NCBI RefSeq assembly: GCF_003148385.1
Contig: NZ_CP029463.1
Span: 1,302,001 to 1,366,000 of the forward strand
Origin: Flavobacterium sediminis
Lineage (GTDB): Bacteria; Bacteroidota; Bacteroidia; Flavobacteriales; Flavobacteriaceae
Reading direction: 5' to 3'
DNA: 64,000 bases
Numbering within the stretch: the first letter of the stretch is position 1; each line of letters starts with the position of its first letter. Of this stretch, positions 25,476-47,354 are shown piece after piece. The position numbers and the translations under genes are program-made. The notes under the pieces are model-generated. The model saw only the letters and a program-made list of their open reading frames with translations. It was not told the origin of the DNA and did not search any database.

Positions 25476-25619
25476 CTATAAAAACAAAAAGTCCCGAAAG
25501 GATTTCGGGACTAAATGTTCTTGATAAGAAATAAAATTACTGCTATTAACCATCACAAATATACGACAGCCTGAACCTATCTCGGATACAGAAAAAATGT
25601 ATATTTTGTTAAAGTTTTA
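25476..25619 (-). repeat. Repeat family 2, copy A: putative small RNA gene
   Basis: 144 bases, identical to copy B (47355-47500) except for two substitutions and a 2-base A-run difference. Read on the minus strand: CTGTATCCGAGATAGGTTCA, then TATATTTG (25563-25556, perfect -7 box), then about 45 bases without a reading frame. A strong terminator follows, GTCCCGAAATCCTTTCGGGAC plus TTTTTG (25511-25486). A transcript of about 65 bases (roughly 25549-25484) is implied. It lies in the 510-base gap between pyk and the M13 peptidase; 25229-25475 shows nothing else. Confidence 0.7.
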
Positions 25620-25627
25620 GAAGAACA

Positions 25628-25665
25628 AAAAAAGCCAGCTTCAATAATAAAGTTGGCTTTTTACT
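25628..25665 (-). terminator. Terminator of the M13 peptidase gene
   Basis: AAAAGCCAACTT, a loop and AAGCTGGCTTTTTTT on the minus strand, just after the stop at 25684. Confidence 0.8.
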
Positions 25666-25683
25666 TTAATTGTAGGGTCTATA

Positions 25684-27774
25684 TTACCAAATTTTAACTC
25701 TGCTTTCAGGTGCTACATACATTCCGTTACCTTCTTGTACATTAAACGTATTATAAAATGCGTCAACGTTTTGCAAAGGCACTGATGCACGATACATTCC
25801 CGGTGAATGCGGATCTGTTTTTACTTGGTTCTTAATCGCTTCGTCACGCATCTTAGTTCTCCAGATGGTCGCCCATGAAATAAAGAAACGTTGTTCCGGA
25901 GTAAATCCGTCGATCAATCCTGGGTTTCCGTTTTCTTTCAAATAAATTTGTAAACCGTCAAATGCAGCATTTACACCTCCTAAATCTCCGATATTTTCGC
26001 CTAAAGTAAACTTACCGTCAACATAGATTCCCGGTAGCGGTTGTAAAGCTGAATATTGGTCTGCCAAAGCTCCTCCAAGTCCTGTAAATTGTTTCAGATC
26101 TTCATCGCTCCACCAGTTCACTAAGTTACCGTTAGAATCATAGCGGGAACCTGAATCATCAAATCCATGTGAAATTTCATGACCAATTACGGCTCCGATT
26201 CCTCCGTAATTTACGGCTTCATCTGCTTTATAATCATAAAACGGCGGCTGCAAAATAGCCGCTGGAAATACAATTTCATTATTAGAAGGGTTGAAATAAG
26301 CATTAACTGTTTGAGGAGACATTCCCCACTCTGTTTTATCAACCGGTTTTCCTAATTTTTCAATATTCTTTTGGTGTGACCAATGTCTGTAGCGGATTGT
26401 ATTTTCAAAATAAGTTCCTCCTTTTTCAGGGCTGGTCACTGTTAATTTTGAATAATCTTTCCATTTGTCAGGATAACCGATCTTTACTGTCAGTTTATTT
26501 AATTTTAACTTGGCATTTTCTTTTGTTTCTTTAGTCATCCAAGGCAAGCGGTCGATTCTGTTCTCAAAAGCCTTCATCACGTTAGCAATCATTGCTTGTG
26601 CTTTTGTCTTTGCTTCCGGCGGGAACTTTTTAGCTACATATAATTTACCTAATGCTTCCCCTAATCTTCCGTTAACAGTCGCTAAAGCTCTTTCGTCGGC
26701 CGGCCGTTGTTTTACGGCTCCTTTTAATGTTTTCCCGTAAAACTCCCAATTTGCATCGGCAACTTCTGTCGACAATACTCCGGCATTATCATTTAATAAA
26801 GTCCAACGTAAATAAGCTTTCCACGAATCGATATCGGCTTCCTGAAAAATAGTTTCTACTTCTTCCATGTATTTCGGTTGCGAAACTACTACTGAATCAA
26901 TGGCTCCAATTCCTGTGGATTCAAAATAATTATTCCAATCTACAGTCGGAACAATTTTTTGCAGATCGGAAACTTTCATCGGATTATATGTATTTCTTCT
27001 GTCTCTTCTAGCAACTCTGTCTAAAGAAGCTGTTGCCATCTTTGTTTCCAATGCTAATACTTTTTCTGCTGCATTTTTTGCAGAGGCTTCACTATCTCCT
27101 AAATATTGCAACATACGTGTAATATGTGCAACATATTTCTCTCTCTTTTCTTTTGTGTCAGCCGCGTCGGAGACATAATAGTCTCTATCCGGTAAACCTA
27201 AACTTCCGGTTCCGACATATACTACATTTCGGTTACTATCTTTAGCATCTGTATACACGTAACTACCAAAAAATCCGATTCCTCCTTCTGATTCCATTTC
27301 CGTAATCAAAGCAACTAGATCTTTCACATTTTTAACCTCATCAATTTTAGCCAAATAGGGTTTTAAAGGAGCAACCCCCATTTTGTTTCGGGTAATTGTA
27401 TCCAATACGGATTTATAAAGGCTCAACGCTTTTCCTTGATCCGAATCAGGAGTAATAGACTTATCTGCTAAGGCCTCTTTCAGAATTGCCATTACATCAT
27501 CATCCGTATTTTTACGCAATTCATCAAAACTTCCCCAACGTGTTCTATCAGCAGGTATTTCTGTTTTATCTAACCATTTGCCATTTACATAGCGAAAGAA
27601 ATCATCAGCCGGACTTACCGAAGTGTCCATATAATCGGTATTAATACCAATCTTCGCTTGAACCGGCTTCTCTGATGCTGCCACCGATACTGATTCCTGC
27701 GATGATTTACAAGAATTTAAGAATGAAGCTAAAAAAAGGAAGCCTAAGCTTCCTTTAATAATATAATTTTTCAT
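25684..27774 (-). CDS. M13-family (neprilysin-like) metallopeptidase, lipoprotein
   Basis: 696 residues. A lipoprotein signal peptide ends in FLNSCKSSQ, so the protein is anchored to a membrane on the periplasmic or outer side. The N-terminal M13 domain starts at about 50 (DDFFRYVNGKWLDKTEIPAD). The zinc site is VIGHEISHGFDD with H532, E533 and H536, and the third ligand is E593 in GENIGDLGG. NAYFNPSNNEIVFPAAI is the substrate-binding strand. Such enzymes cut peptides up to about 40 residues long. The gene follows the M4 peptidase with 65 bases between and has its own -7 box. Confidence 0.94.
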   Translation of the reverse strand: MKNYIIKGSLGFLFLASFLNSCKSSQESVSVAASEKPVQAKIGINTDYMDTSVSPADDFFRYVNGKWLDKTEIPADRTRWGSFDELRKNTDDDVMAILKEALADKSITPDSDQGKALSLYKSVLDTITRNKMGVAPLKPYLAKIDEVKNVKDLVALITEMESEGGIGFFGSYVYTDAKDSNRNVVYVGTGSLGLPDRDYYVSDAADTKEKREKYVAHITRMLQYLGDSEASAKNAAEKVLALETKMATASLDRVARRDRRNTYNPMKVSDLQKIVPTVDWNNYFESTGIGAIDSVVVSQPKYMEEVETIFQEADIDSWKAYLRWTLLNDNAGVLSTEVADANWEFYGKTLKGAVKQRPADERALATVNGRLGEALGKLYVAKKFPPEAKTKAQAMIANVMKAFENRIDRLPWMTKETKENAKLKLNKLTVKIGYPDKWKDYSKLTVTSPEKGGTYFENTIRYRHWSHQKNIEKLGKPVDKTEWGMSPQTVNAYFNPSNNEIVFPAAILQPPFYDYKADEAVNYGGIGAVIGHEISHGFDDSGSRYDSNGNLVNWWSDEDLKQFTGLGGALADQYSALQPLPGIYVDGKFTLGENIGDLGGVNAAFDGLQIYLKENGNPGLIDGFTPEQRFFISWATIWRTKMRDEAIKNQVKTDPHSPGMYRASVPLQNVDAFYNTFNVQEGNGMYVAPESRVKIW

Positions 27775-27801
27775 TTATTTGAATTAAAGAAAGTTAAAAA
27801 G

Positions 27802-27809
27802 CAAATATA
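27802..27809 (-). promoter_or_regulatory. Promoter -7 box for the M13 peptidase
   Basis: TATATTTG on the minus strand, 27 bases upstream of the ATG at 27774. No -33 element at the normal distance. Confidence 0.5.
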
Positions 27810-27839
27810 AGTTTTTGTTTTTTAACTCTCTAAAATCAA

Positions 27840-30662
27840 CTATTCTTTAACAATTCGTTTTACAACTGCTTGCGAATCCGAATTGATTTTTACAAAATAA
27901 ATTCCCTGAGCTGCTGCTGTTAGGTCTAAATTGGTTTCAACTGCGGAAATGTTTTCTTTTACTAATACTTTCTTTCCGGAAATATCATATACTTCAATGT
28001 TCTCTGCTTCCAGCGTCCCCAAGTTTACGGTAAACATCCCTTTTGAAGGGTTCGGATAAACAACAATTTCGTTATTTAACATAAAACTATCTGCCGCTAA
28101 AGTTCCGTTGATCACAAAATTATCAATATTTACTCCTAACTGATTAACAGCTTCATCTGAATGGAATACAATTCTGAATATTACATTTGTTTCATTGTTT
28201 AATGCTGTTAACGGATAAGAGTAATTGGTATTTGTAGTATTAGTTCCTGTCCATTGTGCACCCGGACAGTTGTAACAGTCATTACCCCCTGATGATGCTA
28301 AGGTTCTGTCGCTATTATACCAACCGGAAGTTTTTGTTCCCAATACATTCCAGGTAGCTCCGAAATCGGTAGTATATTCTATATACACTATGTCCCAGTT
28401 TTCTTCCAGATCATATTTCATATCAAAATTAATCGTGGGTCCGCTAACATTGGCTAAATTATAACATTGTGACACCAAATATTTTTTTGTCATATCAGTA
28501 TAATTGCCACTTAAGTTTGTACTGTAAATATAATTATTGAATCCTCCCGAAAGGCTACCTCCGGTTCTGATTCCTCTAACCCATGGTGTTGCAGAATTGT
28601 CTTCGTTATATGTAACTAAAGCATCTGTAGCTGCTGTAAAAGGATTAACTACCCCTATTGTACCCTGATCGTCTACCAATAAAATTGCCGAACGTGTATT
28701 GTTCTCGCTTCTACCGTCATTTATTATTGTCGTTGTAACTTCAATTTCATGAGCTCCTCTTGTTAAGCCGCTTACAGGGAATGAATAATTCTCTTCTCCA
28801 CAAGGTGAGATCAACCCGTTCCATGTTAAATTTGTCGCTGTTCCTCCATCAATACTATATGAAATAGCAACAGATGTAATATCATTTGTTCCGTGATTTT
28901 TCATTGTAATTTCAGGATTTACGGCTACTGTTCCGTCACAACTCACTAAGTTCGTGTTTTGAATTGCATGTAATGCCACGTCATCCGGTGCATTAACATA
29001 AGTTTCGCCTACATTTACTGCATACCATGAATCAGTAACCGCCATAACTTCCGGACTGTTTCCGCAATACAAACTACTTGCTAATTCAATTGATGCTGCT
29101 CTCGCATCAGCATAAGTAGCATTAGAAGTCAGATAGTCTCTCTCCATAAAATAGGCAATCTCAGCAGCTTTCAACAAACCGATACCTGTTACATTATAGG
29201 TGTCAGGAGTCGGAGCGTTATTTGTTCCGGATTCTCCCGCTGCTAAAATATAGAACCAATGGTTCAATACTCCTGAATTTGTATGTACTCCTCCGTTATC
29301 AGCAGTTCCGGAATACCAATACGTTCCTAAATAAGTATCCGGATCACCTTTAATATTAGGGTTTTGCATTGAACGCAAATAAGTAGAACTAATATCTTCT
29401 CCTATAAGCCAAACGTCACTACTTACTGTTCCTGACATAGTTCCTGTTCTTCCGTAATGTTCAATACAAGCTCCCCATATATCCGAAAACCCTTCATTCA
29501 TTGCGCCGGATTCATCCTGATATGCCAGATCAGCTGTATAAGAACAAATGGCATGACCAATTTCATGACCACAAACATCAATGGCTGTAAAAATATCCAT
29601 TCCGCTTCCGTCACCATACGTCATTACTGAACCGTTCCAAAAAGCATTGTTAAATCCGGAATCATAATGAACATAACTTCTGATAGCAGCACCGTTGCCG
29701 TCAAAACTGTTTCTTCCGAAAACATTCCCCCAAAAATCAAAGGTCATTTCTGCTCCCCAATGTGCATCTAATGCTCCGTCATCTTTAGCTGAATTGTTGT
29801 ATTCAACTGCTGTCCAGTTATTGTCATCATCGGTAAAATCAACATTCTGATAGTTTGTTGTCGTTTGACAATTGTATGTTAAAATCCCATTTCCTCTGGA
29901 ATAATCTCTTAATCTATATTCTGTTCCTGTGAAGTCTGTTTCAATATTTCTGGACCCACTATAACGTGTAGCTGCTGTTCCGGCTATAAGTGCATTGGTC
30001 TCTTTTTTTCCAAAACTTTCTTTTGAACCGTGTGCATGTTCATGTAAATGCTTAATAACGGCATCCTTAAAAAGGATTTTCCCATTATTTGCATCAACAT
30101 AAATGATTTGTCTTGAGATTGGTTGTATTGCATATACATCTAATTTATATGCTAAATGTACCGTATTATCTTTCAGATCCGGAAACACAACCAACTCTCC
30201 TTCCGGTTTTTTATACCCCATCAATTGAGCCTGTTCAGAATCTTCCCATAAATAACGGGAGGCATTAACATCTTGTTTCGCTTTTTCTAAAGCTTCTTGC
30301 CCTGTTAACTGAGGAGAAGTGTTTAAATTTTGTGCATTATACAACTCTCCGTTAACAAGAATAATACTTCCATCTTGGCTATGAGTAATAGCAACTCCAT
30401 ATTCAACTTTAAAGTTGTTATAATATTGCTGAAACCTTTGATGTAAATTTCCTTTACTATCTCTGGAAGTCGAGATCAGCCTGAACTGATTTTGATCATT
30501 TAATTCGTATGCTTTTGAAAATTGGTTCAATGCCTGTTGAGCAGACACATTTGACCGACTGATCTTTACAAATTTTTGATGCGTAACAGGCTTATCTTTT
30601 TGCTGAGCATGACCTACAGAGAAAAGCAGTGCTGTTATTACAATTATCATTGAGGTTTTCAT
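27840..30662 (-). CDS. M4-family (thermolysin-like) metallopeptidase with type IX secretion tail
   Basis: 940 residues. Order: signal peptide (1-19), FTP/PepSY propeptide (about 25-220), M4 catalytic domain (about 230-550), a spacer with CARDB-like and discoidin/MAM-like beta domains (about 555-860), and a C-terminal sorting domain (VVYPNPSKGMFTVNLG to the end). Zinc and catalytic residues are H366, E367 and H370 in CGHEIGHAICSY and E390 in NEGFSDIWG. The late HTNSGVLNHWFY carries the active-site His. It is exported across the outer membrane by the type IX system and self-activated, probably as an extracellular protease. Confidence 0.94.
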   Translation of the reverse strand: MKTSMIIVITALLFSVGHAQQKDKPVTHQKFVKISRSNVSAQQALNQFSKAYELNDQNQFRLISTSRDSKGNLHQRFQQYYNNFKVEYGVAITHSQDGSIILVNGELYNAQNLNTSPQLTGQEALEKAKQDVNASRYLWEDSEQAQLMGYKKPEGELVVFPDLKDNTVHLAYKLDVYAIQPISRQIIYVDANNGKILFKDAVIKHLHEHAHGSKESFGKKETNALIAGTAATRYSGSRNIETDFTGTEYRLRDYSRGNGILTYNCQTTTNYQNVDFTDDDNNWTAVEYNNSAKDDGALDAHWGAEMTFDFWGNVFGRNSFDGNGAAIRSYVHYDSGFNNAFWNGSVMTYGDGSGMDIFTAIDVCGHEIGHAICSYTADLAYQDESGAMNEGFSDIWGACIEHYGRTGTMSGTVSSDVWLIGEDISSTYLRSMQNPNIKGDPDTYLGTYWYSGTADNGGVHTNSGVLNHWFYILAAGESGTNNAPTPDTYNVTGIGLLKAAEIAYFMERDYLTSNATYADARAASIELASSLYCGNSPEVMAVTDSWYAVNVGETYVNAPDDVALHAIQNTNLVSCDGTVAVNPEITMKNHGTNDITSVAISYSIDGGTATNLTWNGLISPCGEENYSFPVSGLTRGAHEIEVTTTIINDGRSENNTRSAILLVDDQGTIGVVNPFTAATDALVTYNEDNSATPWVRGIRTGGSLSGGFNNYIYSTNLSGNYTDMTKKYLVSQCYNLANVSGPTINFDMKYDLEENWDIVYIEYTTDFGATWNVLGTKTSGWYNSDRTLASSGGNDCYNCPGAQWTGTNTTNTNYSYPLTALNNETNVIFRIVFHSDEAVNQLGVNIDNFVINGTLAADSFMLNNEIVVYPNPSKGMFTVNLGTLEAENIEVYDISGKKVLVKENISAVETNLDLTAAAQGIYFVKINSDSQAVVKRIVKE

Positions 30663-30713
30663 ATAGTTAGGGTTATTTAAGTTTTGTTGTTGAAATTCTA
30701 TTTATTTAATCTG

Positions 30714-30744
30714 CAAATTTATTTATTTTCAATTTTTAATTCAA
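30714..30744 (-). promoter_or_regulatory. Promoter of the M4 peptidase
   Basis: TTG (30744-30742), a 20-base spacer and TAAATTTG (30721-30714) on the minus strand. Confidence 0.7.
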
Positions 30745-30857
30745 AAACCAATACACTTTTAAATTTTTTTAACAAAAATATGCAAATATGCAATATTTAC
30801 AACTATTCATTCTTTGTTTAATCTCTAAAATAATTTTAATCTACTATTCTTCCTTTG

Positions 30858-30865
30858 TACTTTTG
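30858..30865 (+). promoter_or_regulatory. Promoter -7 box for the SCO-family gene
   Basis: TACTTTTG matches TAnnTTTG 10 bases before the ATG at 30876. It argues against the in-frame start at 30855. Confidence 0.55.
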
Positions 30866-30875
30866 CAAAAAAAAG

Positions 30876-31541
30876 ATGATAACAGGCTTCAGAAAATACA
30901 GAAACTTCATTATTCTTTTCGGTCTACTTTCTATAATCATATTCATCGGAATATATGAACTTTCTATTCCTAAAAAGACTCTCCCGGTCTTTACTCCCAG
31001 AGATGTAAATCCGGAACTGGTAGATTCTACCGTACAACATGTTGGTTACAATCATGTCATTGCTGATTTTGCTTTTACTAATCAAAATGGTAAAACCATT
31101 ACTCAGAAAGATTATGAAAACAACGTTTATGTAGCCGATTTTTTCTTTACCACTTGTCAAACTATCTGTCCGAAAATGACCGATAACATGGTGTGGTTAC
31201 AGGATAAAATTAAAGATAATTCAAAAGTAAAATTACTCTCATTCTCGGTTACACCGGATATTGACAGCGTTCCTGTCTTAAAACAATATGCTTTAGAAAA
31301 AGGAGTGATTGATGAAAAATGGAACTTAGTAACCGGTAATAAGAAAGACATTTATTATCTGGCAAGAAAGTCTTATTTAGTCGTTAAAACGGGAAAACCT
31401 GAAGATCTATATGACATGGTTCATACAGAAAATTTTGTTCTGGTAGATCAGAAGAAAAGGATCAGAGGTTTTTATGACGGTACAAACAAAGAGGACATGG
31501 AAAAGCTCTTAGAAGATATTAACTTCTTATGCAACGAATAA
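30876..31541 (+). CDS. SCO1/SenC-family thioredoxin-like protein
   Basis: 221 residues from the ATG at 30876 (MITGFRKYRNFI). One N-terminal membrane segment (about 9-29) anchors a periplasmic thioredoxin fold. The copper/redox site is FFFTTCQTICPKMTDN with the CxxxC motif. The partner His is in MVHTENFVLVDQ. SCO proteins deliver copper to cytochrome oxidase or act as thiol reductants. No oxidase genes are in the window, and the next genes are iron uptake, so the role here is inferred only from the family. Confidence 0.92.
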   Translation: MITGFRKYRNFIILFGLLSIIIFIGIYELSIPKKTLPVFTPRDVNPELVDSTVQHVGYNHVIADFAFTNQNGKTITQKDYENNVYVADFFFTTCQTICPKMTDNMVWLQDKIKDNSKVKLLSFSVTPDIDSVPVLKQYALEKGVIDEKWNLVTGNKKDIYYLARKSYLVVKTGKPEDLYDMVHTENFVLVDQKKRIRGFYDGTNKEDMEKLLEDINFLCNE

Positions 31542-31582
31542 ATTTTAATGATAAATATCATTTCGATTTATTAAATATAGCG

Positions 31583-31590
31583 TATATTTG
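31583..31590 (+). promoter_or_regulatory. Promoter -7 box for the feo operon
   Basis: TATATTTG matches TAnnTTTG, 25 bases before feoA. I see no obvious iron-regulator box beside it. Confidence 0.5.
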
Positions 31591-31614
31591 TATTTTAATT
31601 CAATCTAAATAAGG

Positions 31615-31866
31615 ATGTCGGTCTCTCTTTCAGAATTAAAAATTGGTGAAAAGGCTATAATTATTGATGTAAATATTGATGAAATCCCACTAAAACTTTT
31701 AGAGATGGGATGTTTGCCCGGAAATGAAGTTGCCTTGGTACAGATCGCACCTTTAGGCGATCCATATTATTTTAACATCAATGATTCTCATGTAGCTATC
31801 AGGAAGGAAATCGCTCATGAAGTAACCGTCGTTCTGGAAAATTCGCTAAATGTAGATGCAAAATAA
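31615..31866 (+). CDS. feoA: Ferrous iron transport protein A
   Basis: 83 residues, an SH3-like small barrel of the FeoA family. Typical motifs are LKIGEKAIIIDV, LKLLEMGCLPGNEVAL and the end HVAIRKEIAHEVTV. It is thought to bind and modulate FeoB. It overlaps feoB by 11 bases, which implies translational coupling. Confidence 0.94.
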   Translation: MSVSLSELKIGEKAIIIDVNIDEIPLKLLEMGCLPGNEVALVQIAPLGDPYYFNINDSHVAIRKEIAHEVTVVLENSLNVDAK

Positions 31867-33952
31867 AATTTTAAAAGTTGCCCTGATTGGTAATCCGAAT
31901 GTAGGTAAAACTTCTGTATTTAATCAGCTAACCGGGTTAAACCAACAAGTAGGCAACTATCCGGGAATTACCGTTGAAAAGAAACAAGGGTACAGCAAAT
32001 TATCTGAGAATGTAAAAGCTAAAATCATTGACCTTCCCGGGACTTATAGTTTAAATGCCAGCTCTATTGATGAAAATGTGGTTATTGAGTTGCTTTTGAA
32101 TAAAAATGACGAAGATTTTCCGGATGTTGCGGTGGTTGTTTCTGAAGTTGAAAACCTGAAACGAAACCTTCTTTTATTTACTCAAATTAAAGATTTGGAA
32201 ATTCCTACTATTTTGGTCATCAACATGGCGGATCGAATGCAGTTAAAGGGAATTGAATTAGACATTCCGGTTTTGGAACAACAACTGAAAACCAAAATAG
32301 CCTTAATTAGTTCCCGAAAAAAAACAGGGATTGATACTCTAAAAGAGTTAATCTTAAATTACGAAGATCTACCCACAGAACCTTGTTTAAATGCTTCCGG
32401 CATTGATCCGGAATATTTTGATAAACTTCGAAAAGCTTTTCCAAATCAATTATTATATAAACTCTGGCTGGTCATTACGCAAGATGTAAACTTTTTAAAT
32501 TTAGAACGAAATGAGATCAAAAGTTCATTTACAAAATCGCATTCTGAATTAAAACGTTTACAGCAGAAAGAAACCATAAAACGCTATCAGTTTATTAATG
32601 ACACCCTTAAATTAGGGCAAAAGATTGATCTTACAAAAGCTACCGATCTGAGAGCTCGGCTAGATCGTATATTAACCCATAAAATTTTTGGTTATGTAAT
32701 TTTCTTTGGTATTCTGCTTTTGATCTTTCAGTCTATTTTTGACTGGAGTAGCGTTCCTATGGATTTTATAGACGAGCTCTTTGCTAATTTGAGTTCGTTT
32801 GCTAAGACCCATTTGCCACCTGGTGAATTTACCGATTTAATTAGTGAAGGATTGATTCCGGGTATAGGAGGAATCGTCATCTTTATTCCGCAAATTGCCT
32901 TTTTATTTCTATTCATTTCTATTCTGGAAGAAAGCGGTTATATGAGTCGTGTTGTATTCCTTATGGATAAAATCATGAGGAAATTCGGTTTATCAGGAAA
33001 GAGTATTGTTCCTTTAATTTCAGGAACTGCCTGCGCTATTCCTGCCATTATGGGAACCCGAAATATAGAAAACTGGAAAGAACGTCTGATCACAATATTA
33101 GTCACTCCTTTCACCACTTGCTCTGCAAGACTTCCCGTTTACGCTATTTTAATTGCTTTAATAATACCTGAAAAAAGAGTATTGGGGTTCTTAAATCTTC
33201 AAGGGTTAACCTTAATGGGATTGTATCTTGCCGGATTCGGGATGGCAATCTTATCAGCATACATTTTAAATAAAATCCTGAAATTAAATTGCAAGTCTTA
33301 TTTTGTTGTGGAGATGCCTTCATACAAAATTCCATTGTTTCGTAATGTAGCCATCAACGTTGTTGAAAAGACGAAATCCTTTGTTACAGGTGCCGGAAAA
33401 ATCATTCTGGCGCTGTCTGTGATCCTTTGGTTTTTAGGGTCTCATGGTCCAAAAGAAAGTTTTGACAATGCTGAAGCAATTGTAAATGCTAAACATCAGG
33501 ACAAATCGAGCTCTGAATTAGAAGATGAAATTAATTCTTATAAGTTAGAGAATTCTTATATTGGTATTGCCGGGAAAATGATAGAACCTGTAATCAGACC
33601 TTTAGGATATGACTGGAAAATAGGTGTAGCAGTTGTAAGCTCCTTTGCGGCTCGTGAAGTCTTTGTCGGGACTCTGGCAACCATTTACAGTGTAGGAAGT
33701 CATAGTGACGAAGAAGTAACGATCAAAAACAGAATGGCAGCAGAAGTCAACCCCGTTACAGGAAACAAGATTTTCAATTTTGCATCAGGAATTTCTTTAC
33801 TGTTATTTTATGCATTTGCTATGCAGTGTATCTCAACCTTAGCTATTGTTAAAAAAGAGACAAACTCATGGAAATGGCCGGTTATACAATTAGTTTTTAT
33901 GAGTGGATTTGCTTATGTGATTGCTTTAATTGCTTATCAAGCTCTGAAATAA
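31856..33952 (+). CDS. feoB: Ferrous iron transporter B
   Basis: 698 residues. The N-terminal G domain has G1 GNPNVGKT (12-19), G3 DLPGTYSL and G4 NMAD (VINMADRM). It is followed by a helical guanine-dissociation-inhibitor-like segment and two Gate motif blocks in the membrane domain (RVVFLMDKIMRKFGLSGKS with the conserved GxxC-like GTACAIPAIMGTRNIE, then TPFTTCSARLPVY). It imports Fe(II) across the inner membrane in a GTP-dependent way. The length is somewhat shorter than the E. coli protein (773) but normal for Bacteroidota. Confidence 0.96.
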   Translation: MQNKILKVALIGNPNVGKTSVFNQLTGLNQQVGNYPGITVEKKQGYSKLSENVKAKIIDLPGTYSLNASSIDENVVIELLLNKNDEDFPDVAVVVSEVENLKRNLLLFTQIKDLEIPTILVINMADRMQLKGIELDIPVLEQQLKTKIALISSRKKTGIDTLKELILNYEDLPTEPCLNASGIDPEYFDKLRKAFPNQLLYKLWLVITQDVNFLNLERNEIKSSFTKSHSELKRLQQKETIKRYQFINDTLKLGQKIDLTKATDLRARLDRILTHKIFGYVIFFGILLLIFQSIFDWSSVPMDFIDELFANLSSFAKTHLPPGEFTDLISEGLIPGIGGIVIFIPQIAFLFLFISILEESGYMSRVVFLMDKIMRKFGLSGKSIVPLISGTACAIPAIMGTRNIENWKERLITILVTPFTTCSARLPVYAILIALIIPEKRVLGFLNLQGLTLMGLYLAGFGMAILSAYILNKILKLNCKSYFVVEMPSYKIPLFRNVAINVVEKTKSFVTGAGKIILALSVILWFLGSHGPKESFDNAEAIVNAKHQDKSSSELEDEINSYKLENSYIGIAGKMIEPVIRPLGYDWKIGVAVVSSFAAREVFVGTLATIYSVGSHSDEEVTIKNRMAAEVNPVTGNKIFNFASGISLLLFYAFAMQCISTLAIVKKETNSWKWPVIQLVFMSGFAYVIALIAYQALK

Positions 33953-33955
33953 CTT

Positions 33956-34762
33956 ATGAAAAAAGTTTTTCTCATTTTCCTCCTACTGCTTTTTCTGTCA
34001 TTTCAAGTAAGCCTGAGTCAAAACAAAATTGACCGATCAAAAAAAGAATTAAAAGCAGCAAAAGAAGAACCCGAGACAAAAAAGAGAACTACTGCTGACG
34101 ATCGCAAAGAAATGCCCTTAGTCGGTAAAGTTTTTATGTATATGACTTGGGGTGTTTTTAAATATGTCGTTATAGGTAACTATAACAGTGAAGAACATCT
34201 TGGAAATTATGTTAACCGACATCCTTTTCAAGAGCAAACACTCGGCAATTATACAGCTTTAAAAAAAGAACGCAACTTCCAATTTCTCGTAAGTGAAAAC
34301 CTTTTGTACAGCAATTCAAATTTGTTTGCCAATCGTCTTACATTGAAATACAGACCTTTCAGTCATTTTTATTTTAAAACCGATTTTCATCAGTTATTTG
34401 AGCGAAACCCTATTTCCCATACCCAGGATCAGTTGTCATTATTTCAGTTTAACTTGATGTATGACCGAATACGTTTTCAGGAATTTAATTTCGGTTGGAA
34501 TATCGGCCTGACCTATATTGGCAATGACATCAAACAGGCGGGATTGAATTTAGGCATTCATTTTGATACATTTCTAATAAAAAACATCAGTTTTTCAGGA
34601 GATCTGAACTGGAGTTCTATGAATAGCATTCCTGTAAACACATACACTTTTAAAGGAAATTATCATTTTAGAAAAAACGTCTGTTCATTTGGCTTTGAGC
34701 ATCTTAAAATTGGGACACCTCAATATAATTTTGTAACTTTAGGTATCGGACATTATTTTTAA
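33956..34762 (+). CDS. Uncharacterised outer-membrane-like protein of the feo operon
   Basis: 268 residues, no family recognised. A signal peptide (1-21, ending VSLSQ) is followed by a basic, charged linker (about 22-55). A C-terminal region (about 95-268) has alternating hydrophobic strands ending in FVTLGIGHYF, a typical beta-barrel terminal strand with a final aromatic residue. It starts 3 bases after feoB and is followed 11 bases later by the Cys-rich feo protein, so it belongs to the feo transcript. Passage of iron or a chelate across the outer membrane is a reasonable guess but not shown. Confidence 0.7.
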   Translation: MKKVFLIFLLLLFLSFQVSLSQNKIDRSKKELKAAKEEPETKKRTTADDRKEMPLVGKVFMYMTWGVFKYVVIGNYNSEEHLGNYVNRHPFQEQTLGNYTALKKERNFQFLVSENLLYSNSNLFANRLTLKYRPFSHFYFKTDFHQLFERNPISHTQDQLSLFQFNLMYDRIRFQEFNFGWNIGLTYIGNDIKQAGLNLGIHFDTFLIKNISFSGDLNWSSMNSIPVNTYTFKGNYHFRKNVCSFGFEHLKIGTPQYNFVTLGIGHYF

Positions 34763-34773
34763 TCTTTCAGAAA

Positions 34774-34896
34774 ATGCAACAAATTTTAGTTTATATAACA
34801 GTCGCTTTTGCCCTGATCTTTCTGATTCGTAAATTCTTTTGGCGAAAAAAAACAAAGAAATCCAATTCCTGCGGAGAAGATTGTAATTGTCATTAA
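34774..34896 (+). CDS. FeoB-associated Cys-rich membrane protein
   Basis: 40 residues. One membrane helix (about 3-21, ILVYITVAFALIFLIRKFF) is followed by a basic stretch (WRKKTKK) and a Cys-rich tail SNSCGEDCNCH. This fits the small FeoB-associated Cys-rich protein family, which accompanies feoAB in many Bacteroidota and is suggested to act in iron handling. The last codons overlap the convergent lipoprotein gene by 4 bases. The match is to family architecture, since the protein is too short for strong homology. Confidence 0.82.
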   Translation: MQQILVYITVAFALIFLIRKFFWRKKTKKSNSCGEDCNCH

Positions 34897-35309
34897 TTCT
34901 TCTTTTCCAAAATGATCTTCAACCAATAATCTTTCAGAACTATTGTCTGTCCTGCTACTTTTTCAGGATAAACATGTATAGCTGAAATTGTCTGATCATT
35001 TAACTTGATACGGCTTTCTAAAAATTTTTTATTCGTTTCAAAATTAAGAGGATCCAATGTTAGTAAGACTTCCGAATGGTCTGTTTCATCATAAACACCT
35101 AAAATCAGTTTTACTTCTCCGGCTCTAACACAAGCAACTCCTTTCGGACAACGACTATCCGAAACTATCTTTTCTATTTTCAGAAATGTTGTTTCACTAA
35201 CTTGTACTTTCTTCTGGCTGGAAATTTCCAGTATCCCATCCTTTGTAAAATCTTTAACGCTATTGCAACTTACTAAAATAAGCGTTGCTATTATCATGAG
35301 CTTTTTCAT
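34893..35309 (-). CDS. Putative lipoprotein
   Basis: 138 residues. The signal peptide ends in a lipobox (TLILVSCNS), so the mature protein is lipid-anchored. The only other recognisable block is SDSRCPKGVACVRAGEVKL, a two-Cys motif seen in small Bacteroidota lipoproteins of unknown role; a disulfide is likely. It starts 2 bases after the Nramp-Usp gene stop, so it is the third gene of the mntR operon and may have a metal-related job. Function unknown. Confidence 0.75.
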   Translation of the reverse strand: MKKLMIIATLILVSCNSVKDFTKDGILEISSQKKVQVSETTFLKIEKIVSDSRCPKGVACVRAGEVKLILGVYDETDHSEVLLTLDPLNFETNKKFLESRIKLNDQTISAIHVYPEKVAGQTIVLKDYWLKIILEKKN

Positions 35310-35311
35310 TT

Positions 35312-37186
35312 TTAAACTGTAATTAAAACCGGAATATTTATTTTATGACGTACAGCCCCCACGGTTGTTCCGAAAAGCAAATCTTTGACCCAATTATGGC
35401 CATGAGCTCCCATAATTAAAATATCAAAATCGGCTCCGTTTACTACTTCCGGTATACCTGTTTTAGGATTTCCGAAGCCCAATCTAACCTCTACTTTATA
35501 ACCGAAAGCTTCCATTTTCTTTTTATATTCATCTAAGTACCTGGCATCGCTCATAGTTTCAAAATCATGCGCTTTGTCTCCATAAACAAACGCTCCAACA
35601 GTTTCTACAATATGAATCAAAACATATTTCGCTTCTTTTCCTCCAAGCTGAAAAGCACTCTCTAAACTTTTCTTATCAATTTCAGAGAAATCTAATGCAA
35701 TTGCAATATTAGCATACGTAATAGAACGATTATTCTCTGACACGATTATTTTATCGATATGCGGTACTAATTTGGCTTGCCCTCGTGCTTTTTCTAAGAC
35801 CGGTTTAATTGTAATATAGACCAGTAAGAATAAGAAAAAAACAGCTAAAGGTATTACAAATACCCAGATATAAACCGGATTTTCAGAAGACATAAGCCAT
35901 GAGTGGATCTCATCATACACCAATTTAATGTTTAATGAAACGATCACCAAAGTTACTAACCAGGAAACTATTTTAGTTGGCAAAGAAATTTCAAAGCCTT
36001 GCATTTTCTGTTTATTACTCACAAAATGAATCAATGGAATAATCGCGAATCCTAATTGCAAGCTCAGGATAACCTGACTTAAGATCAATAATTCTCCTGT
36101 TGACCTCTCTCCAAAATAATAAATAGCCAAAAAAGCCGGTACTATAGCCACCAAACGGGTTAAAATTCTTCTAACCCACGGTTGAATTCTCAAATTCAGA
36201 TAGCCTTCCATTACAATTTGTCCGGCTAATGTCCCTGTGATTGTTGAGCTTTGTCCTGCGGCGATCAAAGCCAGTGCAAATAAAATAGCAGCCCATTTTG
36301 TTCCTAAAAGCGGTTGTAACAATTTATGAGCGTCCTGAATTTCAGCTATTTCAAACATTCCGTTTCTGTAAAAAGTGGCTGCAGCAAGAATCAAAATTGC
36401 CGCATTAACGAAAAAAGCTAAATTCAGAGCAATTACTGAATCCCAGAAATTGTATTTGATCGCCTGCTTAATTCCTTTTTTGGTTCGGTCAAACTTTCGG
36501 GTTTGTACTAATGAAGAATGCAGGTACAAGTTATGCGGCATTACAGTTGCTCCTATAATTCCGATAGCAATGTAAAGCGCTTCACCTCCGGGAATAGAAG
36601 GAATCAATCCTTTTGCCATTTCACTCATTTCCGGTTCAGCAAGGAATATTTCTATAATAAAGGAGAGACCAATAATTGCAATTAACGAAATAATAAAGGC
36701 TTCCATCTTTTTGATGCCTTTGTTCATCAGAAACAATAAAAGAAACGTATCTAAAAGCGTAATGCTAACGCCCCATAATAATGGAATATCAAATAAAAGT
36801 TCAAGTCCTATTGCCATTCCCAGAACTTCAGCCAGATCACAAGCCGCAATTGCAATCTCTGCTAAAAAATACAATATAAAATTAACAGGTCTCGAATAAG
36901 TATCTCTGGAGGCCTGAGCTAAATCTCTTTGCCGTACAATTCCTAATCTGGCACTCAAACTTTGTAAAAGCAAGGCCATTAAATTAGACATCAAGAGAAC
37001 CCATAACAAAGTATAGCCAAATCGGCTTCCTCCCGCAAGGTCTGTGGCCCAATTCCCGGGATCCATGTACCCGACACTTACCATATAAGCTGGGCCAAAA
37101 AAAGCTAATATCCTTTTAAAAACAGATGTTTTTGCTCCTGTATCTATCGAATTATGAACTTCTTCCAATGAGTTATTCTTCTTCAT
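35312..37186 (-). CDS. Nramp-family Mn2+/divalent metal transporter fused to a universal stress protein domain
   Basis: 624 residues. Residues about 25-455 are an Nramp (MntH-type) transporter with eleven or so membrane segments. The metal-site motif MDPGNWATDLAGGSRFGY lies in helix 1 and MPHNLYLHSSLVQTR in helix 6. Residues about 480-624 form a UspA-like cytoplasmic domain (ANIAIALDFSEIDKKS, then ILIMGAHGHNWVKDLLFGTT, an ATP-binding-like GxGxxG variant). It should import Mn2+ (or Fe2+) with protons. The Usp domain may sense nucleotides. It starts 3 bases after mntR, which implies control by MntR. Confidence 0.93.
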   Translation of the reverse strand: MKKNNSLEEVHNSIDTGAKTSVFKRILAFFGPAYMVSVGYMDPGNWATDLAGGSRFGYTLLWVLLMSNLMALLLQSLSARLGIVRQRDLAQASRDTYSRPVNFILYFLAEIAIAACDLAEVLGMAIGLELLFDIPLLWGVSITLLDTFLLLFLMNKGIKKMEAFIISLIAIIGLSFIIEIFLAEPEMSEMAKGLIPSIPGGEALYIAIGIIGATVMPHNLYLHSSLVQTRKFDRTKKGIKQAIKYNFWDSVIALNLAFFVNAAILILAAATFYRNGMFEIAEIQDAHKLLQPLLGTKWAAILFALALIAAGQSSTITGTLAGQIVMEGYLNLRIQPWVRRILTRLVAIVPAFLAIYYFGERSTGELLILSQVILSLQLGFAIIPLIHFVSNKQKMQGFEISLPTKIVSWLVTLVIVSLNIKLVYDEIHSWLMSSENPVYIWVFVIPLAVFFLFLLVYITIKPVLEKARGQAKLVPHIDKIIVSENNRSITYANIAIALDFSEIDKKSLESAFQLGGKEAKYVLIHIVETVGAFVYGDKAHDFETMSDARYLDEYKKKMEAFGYKVEVRLGFGNPKTGIPEVVNGADFDILIMGAHGHNWVKDLLFGTTVGAVRHKINIPVLITV

Positions 37187-37189
37187 AAA

Positions 37190-37843
37190 CTACTGTTTTT
37201 TAATATATAAATTTCCGGCAATCTTCGTTGAAATCACAGATCTGACCCCATTCACTTCAATTTTCAGCAAATCATCAAAATCATCTTTCTCTAAAATAGT
37301 AATTACAGAACCTAATGCTATTTTTTGTTTGTCTAAATATCGTAAAAAATCTGATGATGTATCTTTCACCCCTATACAAACGTAAGGTGTTTGCAACATC
37401 CCTTCTAATAATAGTAGTTTGTTTATTTTCTTAATTTCACCGTTTGTATTCGGAATCGGGTCTCCGTGCGGATCAAAATCCGGAAAACCTAAAAATTCAT
37501 CCAAACGATTGATTAGTTTTTCAGACTTTATGTGTTCGAGTTCTTCCGCGATCTCGTGTACTTCATCCCAAGAAAATCGCAATTTTTCTACTAAAAAGAC
37601 TTCCCATAAACGGTGCTTTCTCACAATCATCTTAGCTGAGTAAGAGCCTTTTTCAGTTAAAGAAACACCTTGATACTTAATATAGCTCACTAATTCTTTA
37701 TCTGCCAGTTTTTTAATCATATCCGTTACCGATGAAGCTTTGGCATCCATCATTCCTGCAATAGCATTCGTATTAACCCCTTTTGGTGAAACTAAAGACA
37801 AGTGATAAATTACTTTTAAATAGTTTTCTTCTGAAATAGTCAT
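37190..37843 (-). CDS. mntR: DtxR/MntR-family metal-dependent transcriptional repressor
   Basis: 217 residues from the ATG at 37843 (MTISEENYLKVIYHLS). The in-frame start at 37891 is inside the promoter and is rejected. N-terminal winged helix (about 1-65, GMMDAKASSVTDMIKKLADK). The dimerisation and metal-binding domain (about 65-140) has RKHRLWEVFLVEKL and HEIAEELEHIKSEKL. A C-terminal FeoA/SH3-like domain (about 150-217) is present. Metal-loaded repressors of this type shut off metal import. Its operon partner is the Nramp-Usp gene. The symbol rests on that context; an iron-responsive DtxR is possible. Confidence 0.9.
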   Translation of the reverse strand: MTISEENYLKVIYHLSLVSPKGVNTNAIAGMMDAKASSVTDMIKKLADKELVSYIKYQGVSLTEKGSYSAKMIVRKHRLWEVFLVEKLRFSWDEVHEIAEELEHIKSEKLINRLDEFLGFPDFDPHGDPIPNTNGEIKKINKLLLLEGMLQTPYVCIGVKDTSSDFLRYLDKQKIALGSVITILEKDDFDDLLKIEVNGVRSVISTKIAGNLYIKKQ

Positions 37844-37861
37844 GATAATCAAATTGTTTAG

Positions 37862-37892
37862 CAAATTTAAAAACATATTTTGTATAACCAAA
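37862..37892 (-). promoter_or_regulatory. Promoter of mntR and the Nramp operon
   Basis: TTTG (37892-37889), a 19-base spacer and TAAATTTG (37869-37862) on the minus strand. The leader to the ATG is about 12 bases. Confidence 0.75.
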
Positions 37893-37909
37893 TTTAATTT
37901 TTAGGTTTG
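37879..37909 (+). promoter_or_regulatory. Promoter of the transporter-like gene at 37930
   Basis: TTTG (37879-37882), a 19-base spacer and TAGGTTTG (37902-37909). It overlaps the divergent mntR promoter, and its -7 box lies inside the palindrome at 37898-37917. Confidence 0.7.
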
Positions 37910-37917
37910 TCTAAAAA
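37898..37917. promoter_or_regulatory. DtxR/MntR-type operator
   Basis: TTTTTAG, 6 bases, CTAAAAA: a 7-base inverted repeat resembling DtxR/IdeR boxes (TTAGGnnnnnCCTAA). It covers the -7 box of the rightward gene and lies 6 bases from the -33 box of mntR. Confidence 0.65.
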
Positions 37918-37929
37918 TAAATTTAAAAC

Positions 37930-38676
37930 ATGATTAAAAAACACATCTATTTAATTCTTTTCGGTAGTTTTTTACAGGCACAGGAATCCGCAGTAACAGC
38001 TATTAATACGGACAGACCCGACCAGACAGAAACAGCCTTTTTGGTTCCTAAAGGGAGATTTCAAATGGAAAATGGTTTTAGTTACACGAAGCATACTAGC
38101 AAAAGTTATAACATCAATTTTATCGAAAACTTATGGAAATATGGTTTTTCAGAAAAAATCGAATTCAGAATGATAACCGAATTAACAAAAGAAAAAGATG
38201 AAACTCAGGAAGTAAGCGGCTTCCGTCCGATAGCATTCGGAACTAAAATAAAACTTACTGAAGAAAACGGAATCTTCCCTAAGATTTCTCTCATTGCCCA
38301 TGCTCACTTAGTTAAAAGTGCTTCAAAAGCATTTCGCAATGAAAAATGGGCACCTGAATTCCGACTTACATTTTTACACAATCTACACCACAATCAAACA
38401 TTCAGCTATAATTTAGGAACAGAATGGGATACTAACGATTTATTTCCGGTTTATATTTATACTGTTTCTTATGGCTATTCAATTACTGGCAGATTAGGGG
38501 TTTATGCAGAAGTTTTTGGTAATCTTACGAAAAAAGAACCAGCCCAACATCTTTTTGATGGCGGATTTACCTATTTGATTTCATCCGATTTTATGGTTGA
38601 TTGTTCGGCCGGTTTAGGCTTAAATTCAGCTGCTCCGAAATATTATTGGGCTACAGGCTTTTCATTTCGTCTTTAA
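37930..38676 (+). CDS. Transporter-like outer membrane protein (phenol-degradation MetA-like family)
   Basis: 248 residues. A signal peptide (about 1-17) is followed by INTDRPDQTETAFLVPKGRFQ, the opening typical of the MetA-like 'transporter' family, and then amphipathic strands to a final SFRL. A closed beta-barrel in the outer membrane is likely. It is divergent from mntR and shares a DtxR-type box with it, so a metal-regulated outer-membrane channel is a fair inference. The family name says little about its substrate. Confidence 0.75.
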   Translation: MIKKHIYLILFGSFLQAQESAVTAINTDRPDQTETAFLVPKGRFQMENGFSYTKHTSKSYNINFIENLWKYGFSEKIEFRMITELTKEKDETQEVSGFRPIAFGTKIKLTEENGIFPKISLIAHAHLVKSASKAFRNEKWAPEFRLTFLHNLHHNQTFSYNLGTEWDTNDLFPVYIYTVSYGYSITGRLGVYAEVFGNLTKKEPAQHLFDGGFTYLISSDFMVDCSAGLGLNSAAPKYYWATGFSFRL

Positions 38677-38720
38677 GAAGACTTTAATATTTTTATTGAT
38701 TCTCAATAAACTTTTATTCG

Positions 38721-38728
38721 TAAATTTG
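38721..38728 (+). promoter_or_regulatory. Promoter -7 box for the bacilliredoxin gene
   Basis: TAAATTTG; a TTG lies at 38696-38698 with a 22-base spacer, slightly long. Confidence 0.5.
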
Positions 38729-38750
38729 CGTATAATTTAAAAAAAAGACT

Positions 38751-39161
38751 ATGTATCCAGAAGAAATGGTAAGACCTATGAAAGCGGAGTTAACAGATGC
38801 CGGTTTTGTGGAATTATATACAGAACAAGATGTAGAAAATGCTTTAGCTAAAGAAGGAACTACTTTAGTAGTGATAAACTCCGTTTGTGGCTGTGCTGCC
38901 CGAAACGCAAGACCGGGTGCAAAAATGAGTTTAGACAACGCTAAAAAACCAGCTCATTTAGTAACCGCTTTTGCAGGGGTTGATAAAGATGCTGTGACAA
39001 AAGCCAGAGAACACATGTTCCCCTTTCCTCCTTCATCACCAAGTATTGCTTTGTTTAAAGACGGAGAATTGGTACACATGTTAGAGAGACACCATATTGA
39101 AGGGCGTCCGGCAGAATTAATTGCAGAAAATCTAAAAGACGCTTTCGACGAGTTTTGTTAA
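38751..39161 (+). CDS. Bacilliredoxin (BrxA/BrxB family)
   Basis: 136 residues, thioredoxin-like fold. The active site is SVCGCAARNARPGA, the CGC motif of the YphP/YqiW group. The C-terminal LERHHIEGRPAELIAENL is also typical. Bacilliredoxins remove bacillithiol (or a similar low-molecular-weight thiol) from mixed disulfides. No thiol synthesis genes are in the window. It is a single gene with its own promoter and terminator. Confidence 0.93.
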   Translation: MYPEEMVRPMKAELTDAGFVELYTEQDVENALAKEGTTLVVINSVCGCAARNARPGAKMSLDNAKKPAHLVTAFAGVDKDAVTKAREHMFPFPPSSPSIALFKDGELVHMLERHHIEGRPAELIAENLKDAFDEFC

Positions 39162-39191
39162 ATTAAAACTTACAGTATATAGCATTCTAGC

Positions 39192-39221
39192 AAAAAACCA
39201 TCAAAAAAACGATGGTTTTTT
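39192..39221 (+). terminator. Terminator of the bacilliredoxin gene
   Basis: AAAAAACCATC, an A-rich loop and GATGGTTTTTT with a T tail. Confidence 0.85.
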
Positions 39222-39232
39222 GTTTTTAAAGT

Positions 39233-39240
39233 TACTTTTG
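39233..39240 (+). promoter_or_regulatory. Promoter -7 box for the acyltransferase-desaturase genes
   Basis: TACTTTTG matches TAnnTTTG, 18 bases before the ATG at 39259. Confidence 0.5.
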
Positions 39241-39258
39241 TAATACAAACTAAATCTG

Positions 39259-39990
39259 ATGCAAAAGATTATCTCTATACCGTTGTCTATTATTTTTTAC
39301 GTGCTGTTTTTTTTATGGCTCGTACTATTTGAACCGATCCAACGTATATGTCTTAACGTTTTCGGCTATAATGCTCATCGCCGGAGCGTGGCCATCTTAA
39401 ATTTATTTCTAGTTCGGACTACTCATATCTTAGGAACGACCTATTCAATTACAGGAAGAGATCAGCTTCCGAAAAATGCACCTTTGATCATCATCGCAAA
39501 TCATCAAAGCTTATATGACATACCACCGATCATCTGGTTCATGCGTCATTGGCATCCGAAATTCATCAGTAAAAAAGAATTAGGAAAAGGAATTCCTAGT
39601 ATTTCATATAATTTAAAACATGGCGGTTCGGCACTTATTGACCGGAAAGATCCGAAACAAGCTTTACCGGCCATAAAAAAAGTGGGAGAATATATCAATA
39701 AAAACAACTATTCTGTCGTTATATTTCCGGAAGGGACCCGTAGTAAAACCGGAAAACCTAAAGCTTTTTCTGTTAACGGGTTAAAAATGCTCTACAAGTT
39801 TGCACCGGATGCTTATTTTGTTCCTATCAGCATCAGTAATTCTTGGAAAATGACTCGATTCGGACAATTCCCGTTAGGGCTTGGAAATCGTTTATATTTT
39901 AATATCCATGAACCTTTAAAAATTTCGGATTATTCTTTTGAAGAGATATTCGAAAAGACCGAAAATGTTATTATAAATAATCTTAAATAA
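39259..39990 (+). CDS. Lysophospholipid acyltransferase (PlsC-like 1-acylglycerol-3-phosphate acyltransferase)
   Basis: 243 residues. An N-terminal membrane helix (about 5-25) precedes the acyltransferase motifs ANHQSLYD (HxxxxD catalytic pair), KFISKKELGKGIPSISY, and VIFPEGTRSKTGKPKAFS for substrate binding. It adds the second acyl chain to lysophosphatidate at the inner membrane, or acylates a related lysolipid. It starts a run of three closely spaced genes with the acyl-ACP desaturase 7 bases on, so chain unsaturation and lipid assembly are co-expressed. Confidence 0.9.
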   Translation: MQKIISIPLSIIFYVLFFLWLVLFEPIQRICLNVFGYNAHRRSVAILNLFLVRTTHILGTTYSITGRDQLPKNAPLIIIANHQSLYDIPPIIWFMRHWHPKFISKKELGKGIPSISYNLKHGGSALIDRKDPKQALPAIKKVGEYINKNNYSVVIFPEGTRSKTGKPKAFSVNGLKMLYKFAPDAYFVPISISNSWKMTRFGQFPLGLGNRLYFNIHEPLKISDYSFEEIFEKTENVIINNLK

Positions 39991-39997
39991 AAAAATA

Positions 39998-40984
39998 ATG
40001 TCTATACACAACATCCGATTAGAAGTGATGCAATTTTTAGAGAAAAAAATTGACAGCTTCGTGGAAGAATTTTTAATTCCGGTTGAAAAAATCTGGCAAC
40101 CATCTGACTTACTTCCGGATTCTGAAAACGAAAACTTTTTAGAAAACGTTAAAGAATTACGGGAAATAGCAAAAGATCTTCCTTATGATTTTTGGGTAGT
40201 ATTAGTAGGAGATACTATCACTGAAGAAGCTTTACCTACCTATGAATCTTGGTTAATGAATGTTGAAGGCGTCGATCAGGAAGGAAGAAATGGTTGGAGC
40301 AAATGGATTCGTCAATGGACCGGAGAAGAAAACCGACATGGTGATGTTCTGAACAAATATTTGTATTTGTCAGGACGAGTAAATATGAAAGAAGTAGAAC
40401 AAACTACTCACCATTTAATCAATGACGGTTTTGATATCGGTACAGGAACTGACCCTTATAAAAACTTTGTATACACAAGTTTTCAAGAGTTAGCAACATA
40501 TATTTCACATAACAGAGTAGCCTTATTAGCTAAAAAATACGGAGACATTAAGTTGTCCAAAATGTGTAAACTCATTGCCGGAGATGAAATGCGTCACCAC
40601 ATGGCTTACAGCACTTTCGTAAAAAATATTTTTGAAGTTGATCCGAGTCAGATGATGTTGGCTTTCCAACACATGATGAAACATAAAATTACCATGCCAG
40701 CTCATTTTCTGAGAGAATCAGGTCAAAAAATCAGTACCGCTTTTGAACAATTTTCAGATTCAGCCCAACGCATCGGTGTATATACCGCTCAGGATTATGT
40801 TGAAATCCTTCAAAAGTTGATTGACAAATGGGAAATTGACAAAATGACCAATTTAACTGATGAAGCCGAGAAAGCAAGGGATTTTCTAATGAAATTACCG
40901 CAAAGAATGGCAAAAATATCAGAACGTTTGGTAATTCCGGAAACAAGCCATATCTTTAAATGGGTTCAACCGGCAACTGTTTAA
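39998..40984 (+). CDS. Acyl-ACP desaturase (soluble diiron, stearoyl-ACP 9-desaturase family)
   Basis: 328 residues with the ferritin-like diiron signature: the two ExxH motifs are TGEENRHGDVLNKY and AGDEMRHHMAYSTF, about 90 residues apart. It introduces a cis double bond into acyl-ACP, using oxygen and reduced ferredoxin. The soluble acyl-ACP form is typical of plant plastids and of some bacteria including Bacteroidota. It follows the PlsC-like gene closely, and the next start is 7 bases after its stop. Confidence 0.92.
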   Translation: MSIHNIRLEVMQFLEKKIDSFVEEFLIPVEKIWQPSDLLPDSENENFLENVKELREIAKDLPYDFWVVLVGDTITEEALPTYESWLMNVEGVDQEGRNGWSKWIRQWTGEENRHGDVLNKYLYLSGRVNMKEVEQTTHHLINDGFDIGTGTDPYKNFVYTSFQELATYISHNRVALLAKKYGDIKLSKMCKLIAGDEMRHHMAYSTFVKNIFEVDPSQMMLAFQHMMKHKITMPAHFLRESGQKISTAFEQFSDSAQRIGVYTAQDYVEILQKLIDKWEIDKMTNLTDEAEKARDFLMKLPQRMAKISERLVIPETSHIFKWVQPATV

Positions 40985-40991
40985 GTTTACT

Positions 40992-41645: not shown

Positions 41646-41792
41646 AACATTTTTTACGTAAAGTTTTACAAAATGTTAACAAGAGGAACAATTTATAGCG
41701 TTCTTTCTTTTTCCTTAATAAAGTTTTAATACTGCCTTTAAGGCTTTTAAAAAATAGAATTGGAATTTTGATTCATTCAAAAAAATAAAAAA

Positions 41793-43514: not shown

Positions 43515-43528
43515 GAACCAAATAAAAA

Positions 43529-43567
43529 CAAACAGAGGCGGTTAATTAAAATAACTGCCTCTGTTTT
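43529..43567. terminator. Bidirectional terminator between phoD and ppc
   Basis: AAACAGAGGCGGTTA and TAACTGCCTCTGTTT, a 15-base stem with one mismatch, flanked by T-rich and A-rich sequence. Confidence 0.85.
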
Positions 43568-43586
43568 ACTGTATCTTATCAATCAA

Positions 43587-46160: not shown

Positions 46161-46199
46161 AGCTTTCTTTTTGAAAAAACATTTAAAGGTAACGATTTT

Positions 46200-47303: not shown

Positions 47304-47335
47304 GGCGTATATGAATTAATTGGCTTATAATGATA

Positions 47336-47343
47336 CAAATATA
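47336..47343 (-). promoter_or_regulatory. Promoter -7 box for dprA
   Basis: TATATTTG on the minus strand, 32 bases upstream of the dprA ATG. The only TTG near the -33 position is in the T-run of the repeat B terminator (spacer 22). Confidence 0.5.
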
Positions 47344-47354
47344 GAATTAAAATT

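Follow-up and report, generated by a model that had tools for sequence, protein, structure and literature searches.

Two nearly identical intergenic elements lie in the window, that is, the whole 64,000-nucleotide stretch of the Flavobacterium sediminis genome analysed here (contig NZ_CP029463.1, positions 1,302,001 to 1,366,000), and they raise the question of whether each is a small RNA gene and what might control it. Both copies occur where the original prediction had placed them (25476-25619 and 47355-47500), and both are oriented along the minus strand; by Pfam, copy 1 follows an M13 peptidase gene and copy 2 is flanked by a dinB-like gene and dprA. They differ, as had been described, by two substitutions and an A-run change, and a search of the own genome with copy 1 and its flanks returns copy 2 at 97% identity (E 4.8e-68). 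Read on the minus strand, copy 1 carries the box CTTTAACAAAATATACATTTTTTCTGTATCC, a putative response-regulator site (25584..25614; match of the promoter model R2 at 25557-25619, one-mismatch match to the box pattern), which is followed by the -7 element TATATTTG (25556..25563; visible in the sequence and in promoter alignment A3) and by a predicted small RNA of about 66 nt with an inferred 5' end (25486..25551; match of the family covariance model R1, E 1.3e-8). The RNA closes with a terminator hairpin (25491..25511), seen in the fold and in the covariation of the family stem, and then a T-run. In copy 2, also on the minus strand, the box CTTTAACAAAATATACATTTTTTCTGTATCC occupies 47465..47495 (R2 match 47438-47501, zero-mismatch pattern match) and begins 2 nt past the dinB-like stop codon (47498-47500); the -7 element TATATTTG is read from the sequence at 47437..47444, and the predicted small RNA spans 47367..47432 (R1 match, E 1.9e-8). 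Hairpin and T-run, like the -7 element, are present in both copies, and by eye no TTG -33 element is visible. The CTGTATCCGAG motif assigned to the conserved block is also present, but it overlaps the end of the ~31-bp upstream box and falls outside the predicted RNA.

The element had been taken for a two-copy gene, and this count has to be corrected. In the 3.44-Mb genome (G000), the search with copy 1 gives nine full copies and a tenth, partial match, and R1 counts 10 RNA genes, two in the window and eight elsewhere. Nine of these share the same layout of ~31-bp box, -7 element, 5' end, short body and terminator, while the tenth, at genome position 1698566, lacks the upstream box but has a -7 element. 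At up to three mismatches the box pattern has 14 sites in the genome, and its reversed control has 0.

Four copies, at 224, 1629, 1694 and 2963 kb of the genome, form a type A, in each of which a second promoter with the same box lies about 40 nt past the RNA and leads into a lipoprotein gene and one to three small exported-protein genes. A type B copy closes three of the four type A operons, and the window copies belong to type B but have no operon. Over about the first 250 residues the four lipoproteins are nearly identical, and they diverge afterwards; their HxH...SxxD pattern is JAMM-like by eye and is not reported by Pfam. All seven small proteins tested from these operons match DUF6705 at E<=0.001, four of them above the Pfam cut-off, and a literature search found no paper on DUF6705. 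The box-driven operons (L031:3646-5186, L032:4864-8309, L033:4268-7713 and L034:1045-4082), in which lipoproteins with a common N-terminus and a variable C-terminus accompany DUF6705-like proteins, resemble a polymorphic effector with partners; the lipoprotein copy in L031 is split into two ORFs.

Outside this genome, R1 finds the family in few relatives. True members occur in 10 of 398 genomes of the genus, F. sediminis included, with 1-10 copies each and often in tandem, such as seven in F. profundi (G277) and six in Flavobacterium sp. 9AF (G314); F. jejuense, J27, NRK F7 and an F. haoranii MAG are further carriers. Twelve of the 398 pass R1 at E 0.001 under strict filters that lose weak matches, and two of them, G276 and G289, were rejected because only their terminators match. 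From 59 raw family matches, five chance matches and one cut by Ns were removed, leaving 53 rows; alignment A2 holds 48 of them with duplicates excluded, A3 holds 52 promoters with one boxless copy excluded, and A4, from which R2 was built, is a selection of 35 of the 52, cut at a fixed offset. In the 48 sequences the first 15 nt of the RNA are almost invariant, the 5' end reading GGTTAATAGCAGTAA and the start being predicted near GGTTAATAG. In the terminator stem, 95.8% of cells are paired versus 73.5% in shuffles, with double changes in six of six pairs, and across the 52 promoters the distance from box to -7 element is constant within about 1 nt by eye. The element is non-coding by inspection, since the T inserted in two copies and the differing lengths among species would disrupt any frame; a small ORF was rejected because the one-base insertion changes its frame. 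A first hairpin in the RNA body, with stems of 7-10 bp in 30 of 48 rows, is not proposed for the window copies, since the stem in their lineage has 5 bp, which is at chance level.

An M23 peptidase gene ends just upstream of the array at eight loci (G314, G277, G061, G231, G149, G387, J27 and F. jejuense), and a homolog precedes one copy in F. sediminis as well; the gene was not found in the fetched stretches of G257, G122 and G134. The Rfam scan proposed with the original prediction, over 4227 families, gave 0 matches in the window, and in the stretches L001, L054 and L055 none reached its gathering score (top 31.1 bits versus 90; lowest E 0.0011, for anti-hemB, at 29.4 versus 49.5 bits), leaving the family unmatched. 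The literature matches listed include no paper on the RNA family or on the peptide-kinase locus described below. Family conservation, the near-invariant 5' end and the terminator double changes support the small RNA gene reading, and the element is very probably a member of a small RNA gene family.

The upstream box leads to a possible regulator. R2, a sequence-only promoter model, was run on the 10 member genomes and on the two false ones, where its best E is 0.07-0.1, and it places the box at one syntenic kinase locus in nine of the 10 sRNA genomes. The order of this locus is a calcineurin-like phosphoesterase gene (a Pfam call for the F. sediminis copy), two to eight small exported peptides, a TPR sensor kinase of 670-677 residues (Pfam for two) and a response regulator of 223-225 residues, which matches Response_reg and aligns with RcsB over residues 6-214 of 225. 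In G000 and its sister genome G257 a box precedes the peptides and another follows the response-regulator gene, the R2 matches at the peptide promoters being weak (E 0.0025 and 0.016, respectively); in G122 and G134 the R2 box lies after the response-regulator gene; and in G231, G387, G061, G277 and G314 it precedes both the peptides and a neighbouring DUF3103 gene (Pfam in five of five). In G149 the response regulator is on a 3.3-kb contig with a fragmentary locus, and no box was seen there. When the 348 genomes with a response-regulator homolog are ranked by it, the 10 sRNA genomes take places 1-8, 10 and 11.

At the loci inspected, those of nine sRNA genomes, two to eight small peptide ORFs with a conserved C-terminus come before the kinase; their export was judged by eye. 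Across 25 aligned peptides, the only invariant residues are an initial M-K and a P, a K and a D close to the end, and the tail follows the pattern P-x(4-5)-K-(K/R/N)-D. A profile search found 98 relatives between 41 and 88 residues long, the tool restricting this length range, and those with an organism name are uncharacterised Flavobacterium proteins; PADLOC on seven proteins gave one match, at E 0.009. In five genomes (L172, L177-L180; by eye) the peptide operon has a long inverted repeat, TTTGTAACACCTTATTTTTG ... CAAAAATAAGGTGTTACAAA, which extends into its -7 region and may be a second operator or a 5' hairpin.

An activator in place of the -33 element, one of two options originally suggested, is supported by the near-constant spacing of box and -7 element and by the recurrence of the box at a two-component locus. 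Each boxed copy would then be a complete gene for a ~66-nt trans-acting sRNA, in which a NarL/RcsB-type response regulator would read the box beside a -7 element of the housekeeping type that lacks a -33 partner, the conserved 5' end would be the likely pairing region and an intrinsic terminator would end the RNA. The regulator would most likely come from the peptide-kinase-response regulator locus, which has the same box at its operon promoter and/or beside the response-regulator gene. The active kinase, perhaps via the exported peptides, would turn on the peptide operon, the exported-protein genes and all the sRNA genes, whose multiple copies would raise the RNA dose. From these sequence relationships, we consider it fairly likely that the sRNA gene family is controlled by the linked two-component system.

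A comparison of the box with the regulator is consistent with this assignment. The half-site is TACA in 12 of 12 distinct boxed sRNA rows and at six of six kinase-locus sites of G000, G257, G122 and G134; it is of GG type in 40 of 41 sRNA rows of G314, G277, G061, G231, G149, G387, F. jejuense and J27, and the kinase-locus sites read in five of these genomes are GG-type in 10 of 10 cases. Among the GG-group boxes read outside sRNA genes and kinase loci, two of eight are of GG type. The recognition helix begins with AQSS in all six aligned GG-group response regulators and with G/S/T-I/L/M-S-A in the seven others (six from TACA-locus genomes and one, G067, with TGCA), three of the four helix-start residues differing between the two sets; the P value of 0.004 belongs to a contrast picked after viewing the alignment, in which 25 of 226 columns separate the groups. 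The half-site and helix shifts may represent one event on one branch. The concerted shift would be the pattern expected if the response regulator reads the box, with the reservation that it is one phylogenetic contrast noticed post hoc.

The same contrast, in which helix and half-site differ between the same groups, and the fact that the box abuts the response-regulator gene or the operon promoter in many genomes both speak against the strongest rival, namely that the sRNA family is real but another factor reads the box and the two-component operon is merely one more target. This rival draws on the points that adjacency does not identify the binder, that 348 of 398 genomes have a response-regulator homolog, the sRNA being absent from almost all of these, and that five genomes with homologs of 56-68% (G239, G012, G284, G204 and G194) have no R2 match at E<=0.01; we regard it as rather unlikely.

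The box also occurs in genomes without the sRNA. Twenty further genomes were scanned with R2, and the sites inspected are a chosen part of the matches listed. In G067, G380, G023, G366, G187 and G310, all without the sRNA, an R2 match lies directly after the response-regulator gene, and the box is degenerate, with the half-site TGCA and an altered second half. G164, also without the sRNA, has an R2 match at its peptide promoter and, by script, a further box after the response-regulator gene; in G032 the script finds it at both places, and at the response-regulator locus of G198 neither the listed R2 match nor the script gives a box. Judged by eye, the 21 boxed genes or families inspected outside sRNA genes and kinase loci comprise 12 that are exported, 2 with a GG-like leader and 7 that are neither or unclear; among them are, in G000, a reprolysin-type protease of 1229 residues bearing a type IX secretion tail and, in G164, an M43-type lipoprotein. 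The two boxed short peptides with GG-like leaders, L183:4642-4893 (-) with KTVEGAG and L189:5587-5742 (+) with KTVKGGE, recall the leaders of bacteriocin or pheromone precursors. Two boxed mRNA leaders of G164 (L224 and L225) carry AGTTAGCAGTAAT and AGTTGGCAGTAAT, which are like the sRNA 5' end.

R2 matches at E<=0.01 number 81 in G290 and 92 in G360. In the seven G290 stretches inspected, a conserved hairpin (GTAGGGGATACC...CCCTTCCCTAC-like) comes after the box, in most of them accompanied by a second, inverted copy, and the box repeats of G290 and G360 (e.g. L230-L240) look like a family of REP or MITE type that incorporates the box. Because the stretches inspected in these two genomes are repeats, the box alone is no proof of control by the response regulator.

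The promoter box of the RNAs matches that of the peptide-signalling locus, and for this reason the RNAs may be an output of cell signalling. To our knowledge, little is known about peptide signalling in the phylum Bacteroidota, and the proposal offers a concrete, testable chain of peptide, kinase, regulator and multicopy sRNA. That the peptide is the signal of the kinase is a tentative suggestion, which we hold with less than even confidence. Slightly more tentatively, the locus could represent a Bacteroidota form of peptide quorum sensing, in which exported, often tandem pheromone precursors bearing tails like TDPIIIPKKD would act back on a TPR kinase and an RcsB-like regulator; just as tentatively, its output would jointly comprise up to ten near-identical sRNAs, exported proteases and variable-ended lipoproteins.

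The Qrr RNAs of Vibrio and RNAIII of agr are regulatory RNA outputs of cell-density signalling. Their logic would be the same if the Flavobacterium peptides are indeed sensed, while promoter type and RNA length differ from those of the present family. In Firmicutes, the csRNAs under CiaRH and the LhrC RNAs under LisRK are sets of several paralogous short sRNAs under one two-component regulator, an arrangement like that proposed here; we know of no peptide genes at the CiaRH or LisRK kinase loci, and the two cases are set apart by description only. According to the excerpted text on FopS of Bacteroides thetaiotaomicron (PMC11697453), this multicopy sRNA, deposited in Rfam, has 14 copies, each with a conserved single-stranded 5' seed then a terminator, behind sigma-A-type promoters. 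As far as that excerpt describes it, FopS is alike in being a Bacteroidota multicopy sRNA with a 5' seed and terminator, a likeness by description only; unlike it, the Flavobacterium family has tandem arrays and a long box common to a two-component locus. Rfp18 of F. psychrophilum, a Flavobacterium sRNA that affects protease mRNA levels, is described with a pairing region in a third stem-loop, and the excerpt of its report makes no mention of a multicopy family (PMC9723704); this comparison, too, is by description only.

Regulation by base pairing would call for complementary targets. In G000 perfect matches to the 13-mer complement are confined to the 10 sRNA genes, and with up to one mismatch there are 30 matches (ten being the sRNA genes) versus 13 in the reversed control. 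The complement sites outside sRNA genes in G231, G277 and G387, at least seven, have no target in common among the matches listed. Duplex energies over 20 own-genome start regions gave uncorrected values of 0.045-0.07 for the four box-driven lipoprotein genes. No convincing mRNA target was found in this shallow search, and because it was shallow the absence of targets means little. That point weakens the reading of the family as a decoy, in which an RNA-binding protein is titrated by the RNA, or the regulator by the numerous boxes: extreme conservation of a short 5' motif without a convincing complementary target and the many boxes per genome would fit a decoy, but a DNA decoy needs neither a conserved RNA part nor a terminator, and we think this explanation improbable.

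A mobile or recombinational repeat (MITE or IS end) without RNA function is very unlikely, for although the copies are near-identical and sit at rearrangement junctions, and G290 and G360 hold large families of box-like repeats, the terminator covaries, the box keeps its distance from the -7 element, the arrays of eight other genomes all come directly after the same M23 peptidase gene, and nine aligned copies with their flanks show by eye neither inverted ends nor target duplications; the IS or MITE end named as a possible refutation gains no support.

The copies also mark recombination junctions, since the 22-kb segment between them (25620..47354, from the M13 peptidase gene to dprA) lies elsewhere in G257, again between copies. 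It is collinear there at 84.6-86.8% (blastn), with hemB and a 272-residue ORF, SDR-like by eye and without a Pfam match at 1e-5, as its outer neighbours. In G000 the outer neighbours are the pyruvate kinase and dinB-like genes, and hemB and the 272-residue ORF stand about 280 kb off, on either side of an A-operon-B unit. Of 12 genus relatives, M13 was detected in 10, with homologs of the 272-residue ORF (43-51%) within 1.5 kb in four and hemB in two, and pyruvate kinase within that distance in 0 of the 10; dprA was found in all 12, with neither dinB nor hemB within 1.5 kb. Because relatives place other neighbours beside M13 and dprA, the window junctions are probably derived, and homologous recombination between copies is the simple explanation for them.
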